From Opitutia bacterium (lineage in GTDB: Bacteria; Verrucomicrobiota; Verrucomicrobiia; Opitutales; Opitutaceae): a stretch of 64,000 nt of DNA. Each line of letters starts with the position of its first letter. Position 1 is the first letter of the stretch. The notes under the pieces are model-generated. The model had not been told where the DNA came from. It saw only the letters and a program-made list of their open reading frames with translations, and ran no database searches. The stretch is taken from assembly GCA_947453695.1 (NCBI GenBank), contig CANGHW010000011.1:1-64000 (forward strand), in the 5' to 3' direction. Positions 45,500-54,204 of the stretch are shown here, one piece after another. The translations under genes and the position numbers were made by a program.

Positions 45500-45528
45500 G
45501 GCCGGTCACTCCAGTGACCGGCCTTTTT
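45500..45528 (+). terminator. Terminator of the Fur-like gene
   Basis: GGCCGGTCACT and AGTGACCGGCC form a perfect 11-bp stem over a CC loop, followed by TTTTT. The T-run reaches the stop codon of the convergent transporter fusion (45527), so the hairpin may also act in the other direction. Confidence 0.96.
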
Positions 45529-48500
45529 ATTGTCGGCCCCCGCCCAGGCGGATGCGGGGATCCAGCCACAGCAGCAGCAGATCGCTGACGAGTGTGCCCA
45601 CGACGCCCAGCAAACTGAGCACCATCAACAGCGACCCCGCCAAATAGACATCCTCGGCGAGCAATGCATCCAACAGCGTCGGGCCGATCATTGGCAGGCT
45701 GAGCACCATGGCGACGATTGCCCCGCCGGAGACAAGATGGGGGAACAAGCCACCGAGTCCGGAAACAAACGGATTGAGCGCGAGCCGCACGGGATACTTC
45801 AGTAACAAGCGCAGGGGCCGCACGCCCTTGGCCCGCGCGGTCGTTACATAGGGCTTCTGCAGTTCATCGAGCAAATTGGCGCGCATCACCCGGATCATCC
45901 CCGCGGCCGAACCGAAACCCAGCACCACCACTGGAAGCCAGAGGTGTTTCACGAGATCGACGAATTTTGCCCAACTCCAGTCCGGCATCGCCGCAAACTC
46001 CGGGGAGAAAAGACCGGCGATATTCAAATCGAACCACCGCTTCGCACCATACATGAAAACTAGCGCGAGCAGAAACGAGGGCACCGACATACCGAGGAAC
46101 CCCAAAAAGGTGAGCACGTAGTCACCCACCGAGTATTGCCGCACGGCGGAGTAGATCCCCATCGGCAAGGCAACGGCCCACGTAAACACCACGGTCGCCA
46201 ATGAGACGACTATGGTAAGCACAATCCGATCACCAATGACCGCGCTCACCGGCTTCTCGTGCTCCATCGAAAGCCCCAGATTGCCTTGTAGCAGCCCCGA
46301 GTCCGCGCTGTCGAACGACGTGAACCACGTGAAACCAATCCAGCGCGCGTAGCGCTGCCACATCGGCTGATCGAGGCCGAAGTTCTTGCGCAAATCGGCC
46401 GCGAGCTCGTCGGTGCTCGCCGTGCCCTCCATTTGGAGACGCGCCACGCGCATCTCGGCGAAGTCTCCCGGCGGCAACTGCACGAGCGTAAACACAATCA
46501 CTGAAACCACGAACATGGTCGGGATCATCAACAACAGACGCCGCGCGATGAACGGATGGCGCAACGCCACGAGCACGAGGCCGAGCCCCGCGGCCGCCAC
46601 CAACAGCCACCGGATCAACGAGGCAAAAGCACTCGGTGGCGGGGCCAGCACGATATCATCGGCGGGAGAATCGGGGTCGAGCGGCAGGACGGCCGCGAGC
46701 AGTGCCTGCTTGGTCTGCGCCACAACCGAGGGTTCATTCGGCGGATTTGCCCAGAAATAAGTTTCTATCCCCGTATTCGCCGGCGACTGCATGTTGGCGC
46801 CAAACAGCGCCACGCGGGGCACATTGCGGAATCCGTTTTTCACCACCACCAATTGCGGAGGCGGTGAGGCCACGCTGATCGTCCACACATTATCCGCGGC
46901 GATTTCCTGGATCTCGTTAAACCGCGCGATGCGCTCCGCCTCGAGCGGCTGCCGGTTGGCATCCTCCAGCAACTCCATCGCCCGCCGCAATGGGTGACCT
47001 GGCGCCGGCTCGATGGCATTGGGCCGGCGCGCCGCGGGGTCGCCGTGCAGACCGCCATATTGATTCCAGATACCGAAGCCCGGCGCGAAAAACGACTCGA
47101 AGTAGGTCGGCACAAAATTCCGCGCTTCAATCAACGGGTAGAATTCACTCTCTCCGGTCCAAACCGTGAAGTCGTGTTCGTAGGTAAGTTTCTCCTGCTC
47201 GAAAAGGCGGCGGGCGCGATTGCGCTGCAAGCTGCGCACACCGACGGCCGCCCAGTCGTCGACGATGAACTGCCCCGGCCCCTGCATCGTGTAATCGGTG
47301 AGATTCAAAACGAACGTCATGCGCGAGCCATCGGGAAAGGTGCGAAATCCTTCGCCGTCGCGCCCGGTCAAGCCGAGTTCGTCGAGCAGTCGGTTCGCCC
47401 GGGCCGGATCGTAATCCGTGAACGAGTAATAGAGCCGCGCATTGTGATACGGTGACTCGGGAGGCGGCGCGATCTGCGCCGGCTCCGTCTGGCCGTTGAA
47501 CTCGGCGTTGATGATATCGCGGCGGTTAATCGCCAGCGAGAGCGCCTGGCGGAAACGCGCCTCGTTGAGCAGATCGTGCTTCCACTTCGTCTCCGGCCGC
47601 TCCGGATCGACGCGCCGGTTGAGATTCGGGAACAGCGTGAACAGGGACTGGGTGCTGGATTTCCAGTGGTAGACCTCGTAGCCGTTTCGCGCGGCATTCC
47701 CGAGCAGCATAATGTGGTCTTCGTAGCGGATGTGCCGCTCCTGCATCGACGGCTCACCATTGGACGCCGAGACGGCGATCAAATTGTTCGTCTTCACATC
47801 CAGCACGACCCGATCGAGGTAGGGCAGCTGCTTCCCCCGGGTATCAACAGCATAGTAGTAGGGATTGCGCACGAGCGTCTGCGTCGACGTCGATTGGTTC
47901 GAGCGCAGCACCCAGGGCCAGAGTCGCGGATGCTCCGGGTTCAGATAGTGCTTCATCTTCTTGTAGACCGCGACCGGACTGGAGAGCTTGAGCGCGGCCA
48001 TGGTGGTGCGAATCAACTCAGGGTCTCCGTGCGCGGGATGAAATTTGCGCAAGTAGTGCGCCGGCACGATGTGGTCCGTGTAATCCTCGTAGTTCATGCC
48101 CGTCGTCGCGAGGCGTTCGAGGAACAGAGGGTTGGGCTGATCGAAAACGAAGCGCACGCGGAAATCATCCACTCGTTCAACTCGCCCCAGTGTGCCACCG
48201 GCGCGCAGGAATCGCGGCTGCGGGTTAAAATACCGCACTTCATCTTCATACCAGTAGATGATGTCTTCACTCGTGAGCGGGTGACCATCGGACCACCGCA
48301 CGCCCTGCCGCAGGGTGAAGGTGTAGACGCGGAAGTCGGACGAAATCTCCCAGGCTTTGGCGAGATGGGGCACCACCGGATAGCCTTGCGGCGACCACCG
48401 CACGAGATTGGCCCCCGAGAGCCGCCAATAGATCGTGCTAAAATCCGTGATCGAGTTGACGAGGCGATACCAGGAACCGCCGTAGCGGCCGACCCCATCG

Positions 48501-48847
48501 ACTCCCTCCATTACGACCGGCTCCGGTCCCACCCGTTCCAGCAACGGCGGCAGGCGCCCTTCCCGCACTAACTCTGCTAACACCGGGGCCTCGGCTTTCG
48601 GCCACCACGGCGCGCGCGAGCCGTCATGGTAGTCGACCGACCGGGTGACCACGGGCGGCCGAGCCAGATCGAGCAATTTGGCGTTTTGCCGCGCCTTTTC
48701 CACCGCCGCCAGTTCCGTGGCCGACGGCGGTTGCGGTAACGTCGTGACCGCCGGACGAAACGCCGCGCCAAATGCATACAGCAGCACGGAAAAACCGAGT
48801 GCGGCCGCAGCAAACCCGGCGAGGATGACCAGAATGCGCTTTGTCAC
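45527..48847 (-). CDS. Family 5 peptide-binding protein fused to a DppB-type ABC permease
   Basis: A 1106-residue fusion. After an N-terminal membrane anchor comes a family 5 solute-binding domain (about 60-700): GQTEPAQI, SDGHPLTSEDIIYWYEDEV, LNEARFRQALSLAINRRDII. A helix near 741-760 then leads to a full DppB/OppB-type permease (765-1106): RRLLLMIPTMFVVSVIVFTL, RKNFGLDQPMWQRYARWIG, GFLGMSVPSFLLAL, RANLLDELQKPYVTTARAKG (EAA loop). Normally these are separate genes. No second permease or ATPase gene adjoins. The start is GTG at 48847; longer frames overlap the divergent gene. Confidence 0.92.
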   Translation of the reverse strand: MTKRILVILAGFAAAALGFSVLLYAFGAAFRPAVTTLPQPPSATELAAVEKARQNAKLLDLARPPVVTRSVDYHDGSRAPWWPKAEAPVLAELVREGRLPPLLERVGPEPVVMEGVDGVGRYGGSWYRLVNSITDFSTIYWRLSGANLVRWSPQGYPVVPHLAKAWEISSDFRVYTFTLRQGVRWSDGHPLTSEDIIYWYEDEVRYFNPQPRFLRAGGTLGRVERVDDFRVRFVFDQPNPLFLERLATTGMNYEDYTDHIVPAHYLRKFHPAHGDPELIRTTMAALKLSSPVAVYKKMKHYLNPEHPRLWPWVLRSNQSTSTQTLVRNPYYYAVDTRGKQLPYLDRVVLDVKTNNLIAVSASNGEPSMQERHIRYEDHIMLLGNAARNGYEVYHWKSSTQSLFTLFPNLNRRVDPERPETKWKHDLLNEARFRQALSLAINRRDIINAEFNGQTEPAQIAPPPESPYHNARLYYSFTDYDPARANRLLDELGLTGRDGEGFRTFPDGSRMTFVLNLTDYTMQGPGQFIVDDWAAVGVRSLQRNRARRLFEQEKLTYEHDFTVWTGESEFYPLIEARNFVPTYFESFFAPGFGIWNQYGGLHGDPAARRPNAIEPAPGHPLRRAMELLEDANRQPLEAERIARFNEIQEIAADNVWTISVASPPPQLVVVKNGFRNVPRVALFGANMQSPANTGIETYFWANPPNEPSVVAQTKQALLAAVLPLDPDSPADDIVLAPPPSAFASLIRWLLVAAAGLGLVLVALRHPFIARRLLLMIPTMFVVSVIVFTLVQLPPGDFAEMRVARLQMEGTASTDELAADLRKNFGLDQPMWQRYARWIGFTWFTSFDSADSGLLQGNLGLSMEHEKPVSAVIGDRIVLTIVVSLATVVFTWAVALPMGIYSAVRQYSVGDYVLTFLGFLGMSVPSFLLALVFMYGAKRWFDLNIAGLFSPEFAAMPDWSWAKFVDLVKHLWLPVVVLGFGSAAGMIRVMRANLLDELQKPYVTTARAKGVRPLRLLLKYPVRLALNPFVSGLGGLFPHLVSGGAIVAMVLSLPMIGPTLLDALLAEDVYLAGSLLMVLSLLGVVGTLVSDLLLLWLDPRIRLGGGRQ

Positions 48848-48992
48848 GATGGGGAGGAGGGCAACCGCAACGCGCGCTCCCACCGAAGGCAACGCTCTTC
48901 CCTCCCCCTCTCCGGCACAGGCGCGCCGGACCGTCCGCGTCGTGCACGCTTGCCACCGCCCGACCGCAAATCGAATCTCCCGACCTCGCCCC

Positions 48993-49898
48993 ATGAATTC
49001 CCCGATCTCCCGTCGCACCGCCTTGCGCTCCCTCGCCGGCGCCGCCGCCATTGCCACCATGCCGCGCACGCCCGCTGCCGAAACTTCCGCCTCAGCCACA
49101 CCCTCCTCCGCCCCGATTCGCCAATCGGTGTGCAAATGGTGCTTCAAGGATATCCCACTCGACGCCTTTTGCGCCGCAGCCAAGGGCATGGGCTTGGAGT
49201 CCGTCGAGCTCCTCAACCCGGAAGATTTTCCCACGCTCAAAAAATACGACCTCTACTGCGCGATGGTCAGCAACCCCACGGGCAAGACCGCCCAGGGTGT
49301 GACCGTCGGCGGCATCAACAAGTCGTGGAACCGCCTCGAGCACCACGACACGCTCGTCGAGATCTACACCAAGCGCCTGGGGGAAGTGTCCGCCGCCGGC
49401 TTCAGCCAGCTGATCTGCTTCTCGGGTAACCGCGAAAAAATGGACGATCAACAGGGCCTCGAGAACTGCGCGGTCGGACTCAAACGCCTGCTCCCCGTCG
49501 CCGAAAAGGCCGGCGTCACCCTCGTGATGGAGCTGCTTAACTCGAAAGTGAACCACAAGGATTACATGTGCGATCACACCGCGTGGGGCGTGGAGCTCTG
49601 CAAGAAACTTGGCTCGGATCGGTTCAAGCTCCTCTACGACATCTATCACATGCAGATCATGGAGGGTGATGTGATTCGCACGATTAAGGACAACCATACC
49701 TATCTGTCGCACTATCACACGGCCGGGAATCCGGGACGCGCCGAGTTCGAAGCGCAGGACCAGCAGGAACTCAACTACGCGCCGATCATGCGCGCGATCA
49801 AGGCCACGGGTTTCAAGGGCTTCGTCGGCCAGGAGTTCATCCCGAAGCGCGATGCGCTCACCTCCCTGCGCGAGGCGGTAAAACTGTGTAACGTATGA
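48993..49898 (+). CDS. Tat-exported hydroxypyruvate isomerase-like TIM-barrel protein
   Basis: A 301-residue xylose isomerase-like TIM barrel with a Tat signal (SRRTALRSLAGAAA). VCKWCFKDIPLDAFCAAAKG, GLESVELLNPEDFP, LVMELLNSKVNHKDYMCDH, KLLYDIYHMQIMEGDVI and the final GQEFIPKRD hold the Glu, Asp, His and Glu metal ligands. The family covers hydroxypyruvate isomerases and sugar epimerases. Tat-exported sugar isomerase-like proteins are frequent in Planctomycetes and Verrucomicrobia. It is coupled by ATGA to the next small membrane gene. Confidence 0.9.
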   Translation: MNSPISRRTALRSLAGAAAIATMPRTPAAETSASATPSSAPIRQSVCKWCFKDIPLDAFCAAAKGMGLESVELLNPEDFPTLKKYDLYCAMVSNPTGKTAQGVTVGGINKSWNRLEHHDTLVEIYTKRLGEVSAAGFSQLICFSGNREKMDDQQGLENCAVGLKRLLPVAEKAGVTLVMELLNSKVNHKDYMCDHTAWGVELCKKLGSDRFKLLYDIYHMQIMEGDVIRTIKDNHTYLSHYHTAGNPGRAEFEAQDQQELNYAPIMRAIKATGFKGFVGQEFIPKRDALTSLREAVKLCNV

Positions 49899-50177: not shown

Positions 50178-51131
50178 ATGATCGAACTGCGCGATCTGCG
50201 GAAGGACTTCGGCGCCAAGACCGTAATCAATGGCGTCAATCTCCGCGTCCGGCCCGGAGAAAAACTGGTCCTGCTCGGACCGAGCGGTTGTGGCAAGACC
50301 ACCCTGCTCCGCATGATCAACCGGCTGCTCGAACCCACATCAGGCAGCGTCTGGTTTGAAGGAACTGATGCTGGAAAATACGACCCGGTCCTCCTGCGTC
50401 GTAAACTTGGCTACGTCGTGCAGGACGGCGGCCTGCTCCCTCACCGCACCGTGCGGGAAAACATTTTCACCGTTCCGCGGCTCCTCGGCTGGAGCACGCA
50501 ACAATGCGAAGACCGCCTCTTTGTTATTAAAGCCATCCTCTGGCTCTTCGACAGTTGGTTTGAGATGTTCCCCCACGAACTCTCGGGAGGCCAACGCCAG
50601 CGGGTGGCCCTGGCCCGAGCACTGATCGCTGATCCCGCTGCGTTGCTCATGGACGAGCCCTTCAGCGGACTCGACCCGATGACACGTCAACTCATCCGCC
50701 GCGAGGTGCGAGGACTCTGGGCCTTGCGCGACAAGACGATCATCATGGTCACGCACGATATCAGTGAAGCCTTCGAATTCGGCGACCGTGTGGCGCTCAT
50801 GTCCTCGGGCACAATCCAGCAAGTCGGCACTCCCTCCGAACTTCTCTTCCGGCCCCGCAACGAATTTGTCCAAAACTTCTTCAATCAAACCGAGCGCATT
50901 CACCACGAATGGCAAGCGGTGCGATTGATGGATCTCGAGTTGGGCCCCGCCGCCGAAAAATCCCCGCGCTTCGACGCCAAAATCGATCTACCTGCCACCG
51001 CAACAATCGCCGAAGCACTGGCCGCAATGGGCGGCGATACCAAGCGTAGCAGTGCGTTGCTCGAAGCCTTTCAAAAGCACAAAGTCCACGTCCGCGCCGC
51101 CGCACCGGAGCAGGACCCTCAGCAGTCATGA
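50178..51131 (+). CDS. OpuC/YehX-type ABC transporter ATP-binding protein
   Basis: A 317-residue ATPase with Walker A GPSGCGKTT, Q-loop VVQDGGLLPHRTV, signature LSGGQRQRVALARAL, Walker B LLMDEPFSGLDP and the H-loop MVTHDISEAFEFGDRV. It is in the glycine betaine/choline/carnitine group by the NRLLEPTSGSVWFEGTD and PHRTVRENI pattern. The paired CBS domains of OpuCA are absent; a short tail (residues 250-317) takes their place. The next gene, a permease fused to the binding protein, overlaps by ATGA. Confidence 0.93.
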   Translation: MIELRDLRKDFGAKTVINGVNLRVRPGEKLVLLGPSGCGKTTLLRMINRLLEPTSGSVWFEGTDAGKYDPVLLRRKLGYVVQDGGLLPHRTVRENIFTVPRLLGWSTQQCEDRLFVIKAILWLFDSWFEMFPHELSGGQRQRVALARALIADPAALLMDEPFSGLDPMTRQLIRREVRGLWALRDKTIIMVTHDISEAFEFGDRVALMSSGTIQQVGTPSELLFRPRNEFVQNFFNQTERIHHEWQAVRLMDLELGPAAEKSPRFDAKIDLPATATIAEALAAMGGDTKRSSALLEAFQKHKVHVRAAAPEQDPQQS

Positions 51132-52726
51132 TCCCCGACACGCTCCGAGCATTCGTCGGCATGCACCGCAATGAATTGGTGACGCGCACGCTTGAGCACG
51201 TCGAGTTGGTCTCATTGTCACTCTTGGCAGCAGTCGCGATCGGCATGCCGCTGGCCGTTGCGTTGCGTCGCAGCCGCCCGCTCTCCACGGGCTTCGTGGG
51301 CATGGCCAGCGTGGTGCAAACCGTGCCGAGTCTCGCCCTCTTGAGCTTGATGCTGCCGTTATTTGGCTTGGGAAGAAACAGCGCAGTGGCTGCTCTCTTT
51401 CTCTACGCGCTGCTGCCGGTAATCCGTAACACGCTGGTCGGTCTTGAAGGCGTCCCACTGAACATCGTCGATTCGGCCCGGGGCATCGGGATGAATCGGG
51501 TTCAGCTCTTCTGGGCAGTCGAACTGCCGCTCGCGCTGCCTACGATTTTCGCCGGCCTGCGCACCGCCGCGGTAATTAACGTGGGCGTCGCTACGCTCAG
51601 CGCCCTGGTCGGCGCGGGCGGCCTGGGCGTCTTCATCTTTCGCGGCGTCGCCAACAACCAGCCCCAGATCATTCTGCTCGGGGCACTACCGGCCGCGCTC
51701 CTGGCCCTCACCATCGACAGTCTGCTCGCGCTCGCCGAGCGCACCCTCCTCCGCCATACTTGGCGCGTCGCCGCCATCAGCGCTGTGATCCTCTCCGGTG
51801 TGCTGTTTGCCGTGTGGCGCCCCGTCCCCAGCACCGAGATCACCTTTGGTTTTCCCTCGGGATTCATCCAACGCCCGGACGGCTACGAGGCGTGGCGAAC
51901 GCAGTATGAAATTCCGGCTGTTCGCTACACCGAGCTCGATATGAGCCTGCTCTACAATTCGCTGCGCACCGGCGACATCGACGTGGCCTGCGGCTCGGCT
52001 CTGGACAGCCGCGTTGAGTCGCTCGGCCTTCGGGTCATCGCGGACGACCGGCATTCCTTCCCGAGCTACGAGGCCGCGCTCCTCGCCCGGGAACAGCTCT
52101 TTCAGCGCATCCCGGCTATGCGACCGTTGCTCGACAAGCTCGGCGGAGCCCTGTCCACCGAGACGATGCGTAAGCTTGTGCGACGCGTGGAACAAGACGG
52201 GCTCACGAACGAAGCCGTATCCCGCGAATTCCTGCGTGAGTGGACCAAGTCCGTCGGAATTGACTGGCAGGAGCGCCGCGCCCTCGCAAAACGCCCTGAG
52301 CTCGATGCCCCCGACATCATCATCGGCACCAAGTCCGCCACCTCCCAATACATCTTGGGCCGAATAATCGAGCAGCTGATTGACGGTGCCACGGGATGGA
52401 ACGCCCAGCTCAAATCCGGTCTGGGCAGCACGGCGATCTGCTTCGAATCACTACAACGCGGTGATATCGATCTCTATCCGGAATTTAACGGCATGTTGGC
52501 CGTGGCGATCTTCCAACTCGGCTCGGACACCACGAGCATGGACCGCCTGCGCAATGGAGCTGACCTGAATTCTTGGCTCAAACACGAGCTGGGACAACAG
52601 CATCACTTGGAATGGATGCCAACGTTCGGCTTCAGTAATGCCTACACCTTGATCGTGCGGGCAGACGACCCTCGCTTCGAGAACGTGCAAACCATGTCGC
52701 AACTCGCCGAGCTACTCCGGCGCTAA
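51128..52726 (+). CDS. OpuC-type permease fused to a circularly permuted binding protein
   Basis: A 532-residue protein. Residues 1-230 are an OpuCB/YehW-type permease with EAA loop (ARGIGMNRVQLFWAVELPLA). Residues 235-532 are the OpuCC/OsmF binding domain, but in swapped order. First comes the half that is normally C-terminal: FIQRPDGYEAWRTQY, LLYNSLRTGDIDVACGSALD, RVIADDRHSFPSYEAALLAR. Then, from about 395, the normally N-terminal half: PDIIIGTKSATSQYILGRII, ICFESLQRGDIDLYPEFNG, FGFSNAYTLIVRADD, TMSQLAEL. The cut falls exactly after the hinge helix SDLA. Both lobes keep their motifs, so the domain should fold and bind a quaternary amine or similar solute. Confidence 0.9.
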   Translation: MIPDTLRAFVGMHRNELVTRTLEHVELVSLSLLAAVAIGMPLAVALRRSRPLSTGFVGMASVVQTVPSLALLSLMLPLFGLGRNSAVAALFLYALLPVIRNTLVGLEGVPLNIVDSARGIGMNRVQLFWAVELPLALPTIFAGLRTAAVINVGVATLSALVGAGGLGVFIFRGVANNQPQIILLGALPAALLALTIDSLLALAERTLLRHTWRVAAISAVILSGVLFAVWRPVPSTEITFGFPSGFIQRPDGYEAWRTQYEIPAVRYTELDMSLLYNSLRTGDIDVACGSALDSRVESLGLRVIADDRHSFPSYEAALLAREQLFQRIPAMRPLLDKLGGALSTETMRKLVRRVEQDGLTNEAVSREFLREWTKSVGIDWQERRALAKRPELDAPDIIIGTKSATSQYILGRIIEQLIDGATGWNAQLKSGLGSTAICFESLQRGDIDLYPEFNGMLAVAIFQLGSDTTSMDRLRNGADLNSWLKHELGQQHHLEWMPTFGFSNAYTLIVRADDPRFENVQTMSQLAELLRR

Positions 52727-52746: not shown

Positions 52747-54204
52747 CTACATGGCCGCGAGCAATTTCCGGAGCGTTTCGTCGACGAGCTTGGGGTTAGC
52801 TTTGCCCTTGGCGGCTTTCATGATCGGGCCCTTGAAGGCGTTGATCGCGCTATCCTTGCCGGCCTTGAACTCGGCGAGGGCCTTCGCGTTCACCGCGATT
52901 GAGTCGCGGCACCACTGCTCGAGTTCGTTGGTGTCAGTGGGCGCGGCTTTGAGGCCTTTGCGGTCGGCGATGGCATCCGGTTGATCGCCGGTGGCGGCCA
53001 TCTCAACGAAGATTTCCTTGGCGGCGTTGGTCAGCACCGTGCCGGCATCGAGCAGCTTCACGAGGGCGGCGATGTGGGCGGGACGCACGCGTGACGTCGC
53101 GAGCGAAAGATGCGCCGCCGCGAGTTCGCGGAGGAGGTCATTGACGATCCAGTTGCCGACGCCTTGGGCTTTGCCCGGACCAGCCAGCTGCGCGGTCTCC
53201 TCAAAGTAGTCAGCGAGCGCCCGATCCCAGACGAGAACAGACGTGAGCGTGTAAGGGAGCTGATACTGCTCCATGAAGCGGCGCTGTTTCGCAAAGGGTA
53301 GCTCGGGGCACTCGGCTTGGAGGCGGGATTTCCATTCGGCATCGACCTTCACGGGCATGAGGTCGGGGTCGGGAAAATAGCGGTAGTCGTGCGCATCTTC
53401 CTTCGAGCGCAGCGATTGGGAAGTGCCGGCCTGGCCATCGTAGTCACGTGTCTCCTGCACGATGGTGCCGCCGCGCTCGAGGACGGCGAGCTGGCGCTTG
53501 ATCTCGTGCTGAATGCCGTCGCGGACGAAGGAAATCGAGTTGAGGTTCTTCAGCTCGACCTTCGTGCCGAGCTTGGTCTCGCCCACCGGACGGATCGAGA
53601 TGTTGGCGTCGCAGCGAAGCTGCCCTTTCTCCATGTCGCAGTCGGAAATCCCTCCGTAGATCATCGTCGCGCGGAGCGAAGTGAGGTAGGCGTAGGCTTC
53701 ATCGGCCGTGTGCATCGCGGGATCAGAAACGATCTCCATGAGCGGTGTGCCGGCGCGGTTATAATCGATCAGCGAATCAGTCGCGCCGTGGTTGAGTTTA
53801 CCCACGTCTTCTTCGAGGTGAATGCGCGTAAGCGGGACTTTTTTGTGCTCGCCCATGATGTTGCGAGCGGAGCCGGGCAACTCGATCTCGACGGAGCCGC
53901 CGAGACAGATCGGCTGGTCGTATTGCGAGATCTGGTAGTTCTTCGGCGAATCCGGGTAGAAGTAATTTTTCCGGTCCCATTTGCAGACCGGCGCGATCTC
54001 GCAGCCGAGGAGGAGGCCGGCCTTGATGATGGCGTCGAGCGCGGCCTTGTTCATCACGGGCAGCGCACCGGGAAGAGCAAGGACGACGGGGTCGGTCAAC
54101 GTGTTGGGCTCGTGCCCGTAGCCAGCGGCGACGCGCGTAAACATCTTCGACTGAGTCTTGATCTGGACGTGGACCTCCAGACCGATGACGGCTTCGTAGT
54201 TCAT
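52747..54204 (-). CDS. gatB: Asp-tRNA(Asn)/Glu-tRNA(Gln) amidotransferase subunit B
   Basis: A 485-residue Gat[82 protein letters not shown] and the C-terminal YqeY-like tail domain. GatB binds mischarged tRNA and activates its acyl group with ATP. It starts by TGATG overlap with gatA. The minus-strand order gatC-gatA-gatB is complete. Confidence 0.97.
   Translation of the reverse strand: MNYEAVIGLEVHVQIKTQSKMFTRVAAGYGHEPNTLTDPVVLALPGALPVMNKAALDAIIKAGLLLGCEIAPVCKWDRKNYFYPDSPKNYQISQYDQPICLGGSVEIELPGSARNIMGEHKKVPLTRIHLEEDVGKLNHGATDSLIDYNRAGTPLMEIVSDPAMHTADEAYAYLTSLRATMIYGGISDCDMEKGQLRCDANISIRPVGETKLGTKVELKNLNSISFVRDGIQHEIKRQLAVLERGGTIVQETRDYDGQAGTSQSLRSKEDAHDYRYFPDPDLMPVKVDAEWKSRLQAECPELPFAKQRRFMEQYQLPYTLTSVLVWDRALADYFEETAQLAGPGKAQGVGNWIVNDLLRELAAAHLSLATSRVRPAHIAALVKLLDAGTVLTNAAKEIFVEMAATGDQPDAIADRKGLKAAPTDTNELEQWCRDSIAVNAKALAEFKAGKDSAINAFKGPIMKAAKGKANPKLVDETLRKLLAAM

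Follow-up and report, generated by a model that had tools for sequence, protein, structure and literature searches.

Circularly permuted binding proteins of the glycine-betaine type are already known. In B. subtilis OpuAC (2b4l), the C-lobe precedes the N-lobe and a short linker joins the two, as in the protein studied here, to whose predicted model it aligns structurally over about the length of the domain. However, OpuAC belongs to the OpuA family with its Trp-prism site, is only 12-13% identical in structure alignments and, according to a partial account of it, is a separate lipid-anchored protein that is not fused to a permease. L. lactis OpuA (7ahc/7ahd) shares with our protein the permease followed by a C-terminal binding domain, attached via an anchor helix and a short linker (PMC11065425, in excerpt), but it also represents the OpuA family and carries its binding domain in normal order. 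By sequence, the nearest solved relatives of the binding domain are S. pneumoniae EgtUBC, Bacillus OpuCC/OpuBC and A. fulgidus ProX (cluster F-III) as well as engineered sensors. These possess the same cage positions, and EgtUBC is likewise presented, in the excerpted source, as a fusion of permease and substrate-binding domain, whereas the N-lobe comes first in the five alignments shown (two of EgtUC and three of sensors or their precursors). Furthermore, T. pallidum Tp0684 (MglB-2) is a tethered ABC binding protein that has kept its ligand binding despite circular permutation (PMC4990184, in part), but its fold type (cluster B, sugar-binding) and its cut are different.

Here, we examined a window of 64,000 nt, by which we mean the whole stretch of DNA that was analysed, from an Opitutia bacterium (GCA_947453695.1, contig CANGHW010000011.1; all coordinates are window positions). 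Its genome, G000, is a draft of 356 contigs that is 92.95% complete. The window encodes a 532-aa protein which, at a probability of roughly 0.78, provides both the membrane part and the receptor of an OpuC/OsmF-type (EgtU-like) type I ABC importer encoded by two genes, with a binding domain that is complete but circularly permuted. An OpuC-type importer with a permease fused to a permuted binding domain had been proposed in an earlier note on this DNA, and profiles, relatives and a confident model set beside a normal-order control all speak for it. In sequence, the two lobes are closer to OpuCC, EgtUC and ProX than to OpuA-type proteins, and the protein does not group with the OpuA family: a listing of 39 sequences at E up to 1 lacks 2b4l, and it includes 7ahc only for a match in the permease.

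Circular-permutation relations among 2b4l, 1r9l and 1sw1 were published in 2008 (PMC2395249, in excerpt). The view of the earlier note that a permuted order is not standard has to be narrowed accordingly, as permutation among glycine-betaine-binding proteins is on record, the same kind of order occurs in B. subtilis OpuAC, and it is common among the relatives found here. What survives of that view concerns the OpuC/OsmF family: in the open literature searched, we found no account of permuted OpuC/OsmF domains, nor of how they are fused to a permease, how widely they occur or that a second cut point exists, and it is these features that appear to be new. An older description of the order in OpuAC and ProX may exist.

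Gene pair and order of the lobes

The start codon of the fusion gene lies in a 4-base overlap with the end of an ATPase gene (Table 1), and this adjoining gene and the PF00528 permease are features of a type I ABC importer. The ATPase scores 258.1 bits against TIGR01186 (proV), below the cut-off of 326.6, and an ATPase gene is found in the same stretch in all five permuted relatives whose stretch is uncut (L052, L053, L054, L056 and L057). Downstream of the fusion gene there is no room for a further lobe, as a convergent gene ends at 52747, 21 bases beyond the stop, and no PF04069 domain besides that of the fusion protein was found in the genome at E 0.001. Another receptor-permease fusion is encoded nearby on the minus strand (ORF 45527-49240), in which a family 5 solute-binding protein domain (SBP_bac_5) occupies residues 166-547 of the stretch 45530-48871 and BPD_transp_1 residues 901-1108, near the C-terminal end.

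Table 1. Features of the importer locus, in window coordinates.
Feature	Position	Strand	Basis
ABC ATPase subunit, ProV/OpuC-like, 317 aa	50178..51131	+	PF00005, E 3.2e-34
Permease fused to circularly permuted substrate-binding domain, 532 aa	51128..52726	+	ORF bounds exact
Permease domain PF00528, residues 36-206	51233..51745	+	E 1.3e-19
Anchor helix, residues 211-229, 10 residues upstream of first C-lobe strand (240-242)	51758..51814	+	Secondary structure of the model
C-lobe segment, placed first, residues about 236-375	51833..52252	+	PF04069 114-257; normal-order profile 128-261
Linker from old C-terminus to old N-terminus, residues about 376-395	52253..52312	+	Alignment
N-lobe segment, placed last, residues 396-532, terminal helix 523-531	52313..52723	+	PF04069 2-110; normal-order profile 1-126; model
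Ser290, at EgtUC Tyr419 cage position	51995..51997	+	F/Y in the other 36 of 37 permuted rows
Tyr314, at EgtUC Tyr443 cage position	52067..52069	+	Y in 37 of 37
Phe453, at EgtUC Phe293 cage position	52484..52486	+	Y in the other 36 of 37
Asn504 and Tyr506 (hinge strand), at EgtUC Asn339 and Tyr341	52637..52645	+	504: N in 36 of 37; 506: Y 25, F 9, H 3

Pfam PF04069 matches the 532-aa protein at 122.1 bits, above its gathering cut-off of 21.2 bits, but in broken order: profile positions 114-257 fall on residues 237-371 and precede positions 2-110, which fall on residues 396-528. The second part of the domain thus comes first and the first part last, as had been claimed. The NCBIfam OsmF model NF049931 relates residues 394-530 to its positions 2-132 (75.4 bits, far below the cut-off of 400). 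Against a control profile of 262 positions, built from 44 normal-order domains alone, the native window domain matched in two pieces, 128-261 and then 1-126 (127.3 and 99.5 bits), and exchanging its halves, a check that the earlier note had suggested, turned these into a single collinear piece (1-261, 240.7 bits). From 20 shuffles of residues 235-532 only one was reported, at -0.1 bits, compared with 228.5 bits for the native order. Exactly two pieces were also obtained for all 42 permuted rows (40 different loci, two of them represented twice), among which the window protein had the lowest summed lobe score. The first piece starts at profile positions 114-131 and the second stops at 123-130 in these rows. 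The cut follows the helix that ends the N-lobe, in agreement with its previous placement directly after the hinge helix. From residue 369 to the N-lobe glycine, 37 permuted rows have 19-30 residues. Furthermore, the last part of the protein proved homologous to the starts of EgtUC and A. fulgidus ProX and, in the normal-order profile, to the first half, so that the contrary possibility, an N-lobe unrelated to the OpuCC start, did not materialize.

The same swapped order is present in relatives that are 58, 49 and 44% identical over the domain. Compared with the 58% relative, codon positions 1, 2 and 3 differ 179, 97 and 305 times over 532 codons, and the NG86 estimates are dN 0.31 and dS 1.70 (dS 3.3 in the C-lobe), the latter being near or past saturation. 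By this comparison of coding sequences, the codon pattern is that of a gene maintained by selection.

Predicted structure and binding site

AlphaFold2, run on an alignment of 37 unchanged sequences, modelled the window protein with a mean pLDDT of 89.2, a pTM of 0.78 and no residue below 50. The strands and helices of both lobes are seen in the model as one complete two-lobed domain; the pair of incomplete domains which the earlier note had named as the opposite outcome was not found. A normal-order fused control, L132, folded in the same way, reached a pLDDT of 86.6. In Foldseek comparisons the best match of the window model was L. lactis OpuA, with permease and domain together, followed among binding proteins by B. 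subtilis OpuAC (2b4l, 2b4m and 5nxx; TMt 0.67-0.70 over 310-316 columns, which is about the length of the domain in a listing that gives no aligned ranges), while A. fulgidus ProX (3mam) reached a TMt of only 0.41. The control, instead, matched OpuCC, OpuBC, EgtUC and ProX at TMt 0.83-0.93, and 2b4l was absent among the best 50 matches listed for it; 5nxy, at TMt 0.92 to the control, is titled OpuAC in one listing and OpuCC in another. Against 7ahd_A of L. lactis OpuA the control scored higher than the window model (TMt 0.67 and 0.54), full-length TM-scores being blurred also by the orientation of the domain to the permease.

These contrasts between window and control are attributed to the normal order of L. 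lactis OpuA and the permuted order of B. subtilis OpuAC. When the normal-order OpuA-type protein L146 served as query, the alignments of L. lactis OpuA and of the choline-binding protein 2reg were continuous, whereas that of B. subtilis OpuAC was swapped, its residues 6-155 pairing with 126-273 and its residues 166-267 with 23-124. Sharing of the swapped order by L. lactis OpuA, despite its first rank, was therefore rejected, in view of its normal order relative to L146 and the better score of the control on 7ahd_A.

The ligand cage of EgtUC is formed by F293, N339, Y341, Y419 and Y443 (PMC9732360, in part). Transferred to our protein by alignment, with a chain offset of 229 derived from those five letters, this cage of four aromatics and one Asn retains Y314, F453, N504 and Y506, and its fifth position is taken by Ser290. 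Within the N-lobe motif, the window protein also deviates at Phe404 and Glu406. Judged from the conserved cage letters, most permuted members seem capable of binding a quaternary ammonium group, and the gene pair probably constitutes an importer for solutes of this type. In the window protein itself, with one cage aromatic replaced by Ser290, the specificity is probably altered, and its ligand may be other than betaine, because Ser290 offers no aromatic ring and the motif has changed at 404 and 406. The closest relative, L063 (genome G067), has Arg at the cage position of Asn504 and Cys-Pro-Glu-Tyr-Gly-Gly in place of the usual motif; this Opitutaceae branch seems to be changing its binding site.

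Distribution and history of the lobe order

Among 252 genomes of the family to which the window belongs, six matched the domain: the window, G067 (58%), G134 (49%), G186 (44%), G068 (50%) and G214 (26%). The first five are swapped, G068 being truncated by a contig end, which leaves the N-lobe and the last part of the C-lobe visible, and G214 is in normal order. The search for the same order in other Opitutaceae thus found it in four further genomes of the family. When the whole Pfam family was run against the same 252 genomes, 36 matched, 27 of them only below 40 bits; the nine above comprise the same five swapped genomes and four in order (G013, G146, G147 and G214), of which G013 encodes an OpuA-type protein and is hence not like-for-like with the swapped five. 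In 387 genomes of the phylum there were nine with a match, namely the window, two swapped (G551 and G515), five in order (G282, G417, G562, G434 and G492) and one fragment (G432).

A scan of a genome collection yielded no relative with the window protein alone as query, but 545 with an alignment as query, of which the best 80 were kept. These 80 loci divide into 40 swapped, 38 in order, one tandem (L113) and one with another cut (L103), and since a swapped query favours swapped loci, 40 of 80 is not to be read as a frequency. The 40 swapped loci derive from Verrucomicrobiota/Lentisphaerota, Bacteroidota, Planctomycetota, Armatimonadota, Latescibacterota, Aminicenantes, a MAG labelled Nodularia and unplaced MAGs, and include records of named strains such as Larkinella, Hymenobacter and Niastella. 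Most (33 of 40, including the frameshifted L102) are fused to the permease; the other seven are separate binding-protein genes with an N-terminal hydrophobic stretch. On plasmids, a tblastn search matched 191 records. Several further arrangements were observed along the way. In the Hymenobacter qilianensis copy (L102:3188-4869) the reading frame breaks within the C-lobe, L111, L127 and L134 display the reverse fusion, with a normal-order binding domain at the N-terminus followed by the permease, and the MAG labelled Nodularia (L072, G650) has, besides its swapped copy, a separate normal-order PF04069 match in a 305-aa frame (2-256, 199.9 bits).

To follow the history of the order, we used a tree of 85 un-permuted domains, consisting of 40 swapped rows (with the window, without L102), 44 in order and L103. 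It needs seven order changes, at least three of which are forced by well-supported branches. One pair of opposite order, L059 (normal, G434) and L070 (swapped, on a contig of G551), comes from two genomes of one family (f71); the two are sisters at 98/86, are 69-71% identical, and are mutual nearest rows for each lobe taken apart. Trees of single lobes need eight order changes each and both place the window nearest to its Opitutaceae kin, and L136 and L101 switch neighbours between them, which may reflect either lobe exchange or weak signal. Some of the clades tested were named only after inspection of the tree. The four Opitutaceae rows of the window together with 25 Bacteroidota-type permuted rows were not rejected as a clade (p 0.465), and the other 11 permuted rows were borderline (p 0.049), or p 0.411 once L059 and L103 were added. 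A similar Gly-Ser-Ala-Gly-like linker in L070, L086, L096, L099 and the fused L101 suggests one origin for those five.

In one Brocadiaceae MAG (L103:3890-4843), the N-lobe begins at profile position 22 and is followed by the C-lobe, by N-lobe positions 1-25 and by the stop; inspection by eye of the three forward frames downstream revealed nothing similar. In a Thermoleophilia MAG (L113:2723-5257), the permease is followed by two tandem normal-order domains (NCNC). Tandem duplication with subsequent loss of the outer halves would be the simplest route to the swapped order. Such a route needs a permease with two tandem normal-order domains, and L113 demonstrates that this architecture exists. 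On the tree, however, L113 belongs to a branch of normal order, and the permuted branches showed no tandem form.

Membrane tether and alternative explanations

In the proposed importer, two 532-aa chains and two ATPases would form the transporter, and each chain would run from the transmembrane (TM) anchor through the C-lobe, a linker of about 20 residues joining the old ends and the N-lobe, stopping after the hinge helix. Fold and cleft would remain unchanged, the tether would move from the N-lobe to the C-lobe, and a quaternary-ammonium or betaine-like solute would be bound and imported. Between anchor helix and first strand there are 10 residues in the window model and 11 in the control L132, and the tether of L. 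lactis OpuA likewise has 11 residues, with its two permease subunits contacting different lobes of one docked domain (excerpted text of PMC11065425). Going by these models, the length of the tether is kept and the other lobe is held. The exchange may be tolerated because the OpuA permease subunits touch different lobes, so that two identical, interchangeable halves could accept either one. The earlier note had suggested that placing the permease beside the normally internal edge may orient the lobes over the channel; such contact might account for the order, but seven of the 40 swapped loci encode the binding protein apart from the permease.

The swapped order is a real and conserved design, neither a one-off nor an assembly error. 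The opposite reading, in which the order stems from misassembly or the two halves are decayed remnants, would draw on the draft state of the genome and on the motif letters lost in the window protein, but it is extremely improbable, considering that the same order recurs in the above named strains and others and in half of the 80 loci, that the codon differences point to selection on the gene, and that the model is confident and complete. The diverged cage and N-lobe motif could also mean that the domain senses its ligand or regulates the permease and no longer serves import; we regard this as improbable, although less so, since no part of the system, from the permease and anchor through the two lobes to the ATPase gene, is broken and, at the threshold given above, no other PF04069 domain was found in the genome.

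How often the order changed is a closer matter. That it arose several times within the OpuC/OsmF family, or reverted, is advocated by the changes that the tree requires, by the sister position of L059 and L070, by the different cut point of L103, and by the rejection of the 40 swapped rows as a single clade (AU p 0.009). However, the data do not reject a clade that also takes in L059 and L103 (p 0.148), such that one origin, one reversion and one further shift also fit; nor do they reject a clade of L070 and L086 without L059 (p 0.358), and the common linker type points to a single origin for its five carriers. Several origins or reversions come out slightly below an even chance. The cautious reading is at least one origin, a shift in L103 and, probably, a change between L059 and L070 in either direction. 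Together with the second cut point of L103 inside the N-lobe and the same kind of hinge cut in the sister OpuA family, this could be viewed as a family that switches its chain order repeatedly, an interpretation we put forward only tentatively. A selective reason might be adaptation to the membrane tether, if holding the C-lobe instead of the N-lobe frees the cleft or helps docking. By a crude rule, in which a Cys within 28 residues before the first lobe denotes a lipid anchor and for which 79 of 85 rows could be used, 40 of 40 swapped rows are TM-tethered (L063 exempted by hand, its Cys lying in the fused anchor helix), compared with 9 of 38 normal-order rows, which lack a Cys that the remaining 29 possess; L103 counts as TM-tethered. 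The authors of the permuted T. pallidum MglB-2 also raised the tether as a reason (PMC4990184, in excerpt). Yet supported independent pairs number three, so that significance is out of reach, B. subtilis OpuAC is permuted yet lipid-anchored in its partial description, and normal-order fused domains exist, making this adaptation unlikely.

Natural circular permutants that keep their function reveal which connections of a fold matter, and in searches with whole-domain profiles such proteins show up as two partial matches. As the permutation occurs in several phyla and close relatives of normal order exist alongside it, with 69-71% identity in one case, the family supplies matched natural proteins for tests of tether position on a permease-linked receptor. 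If repeated switching is true, the family would amount to a natural experiment on the choice of the membrane-tied lobe.
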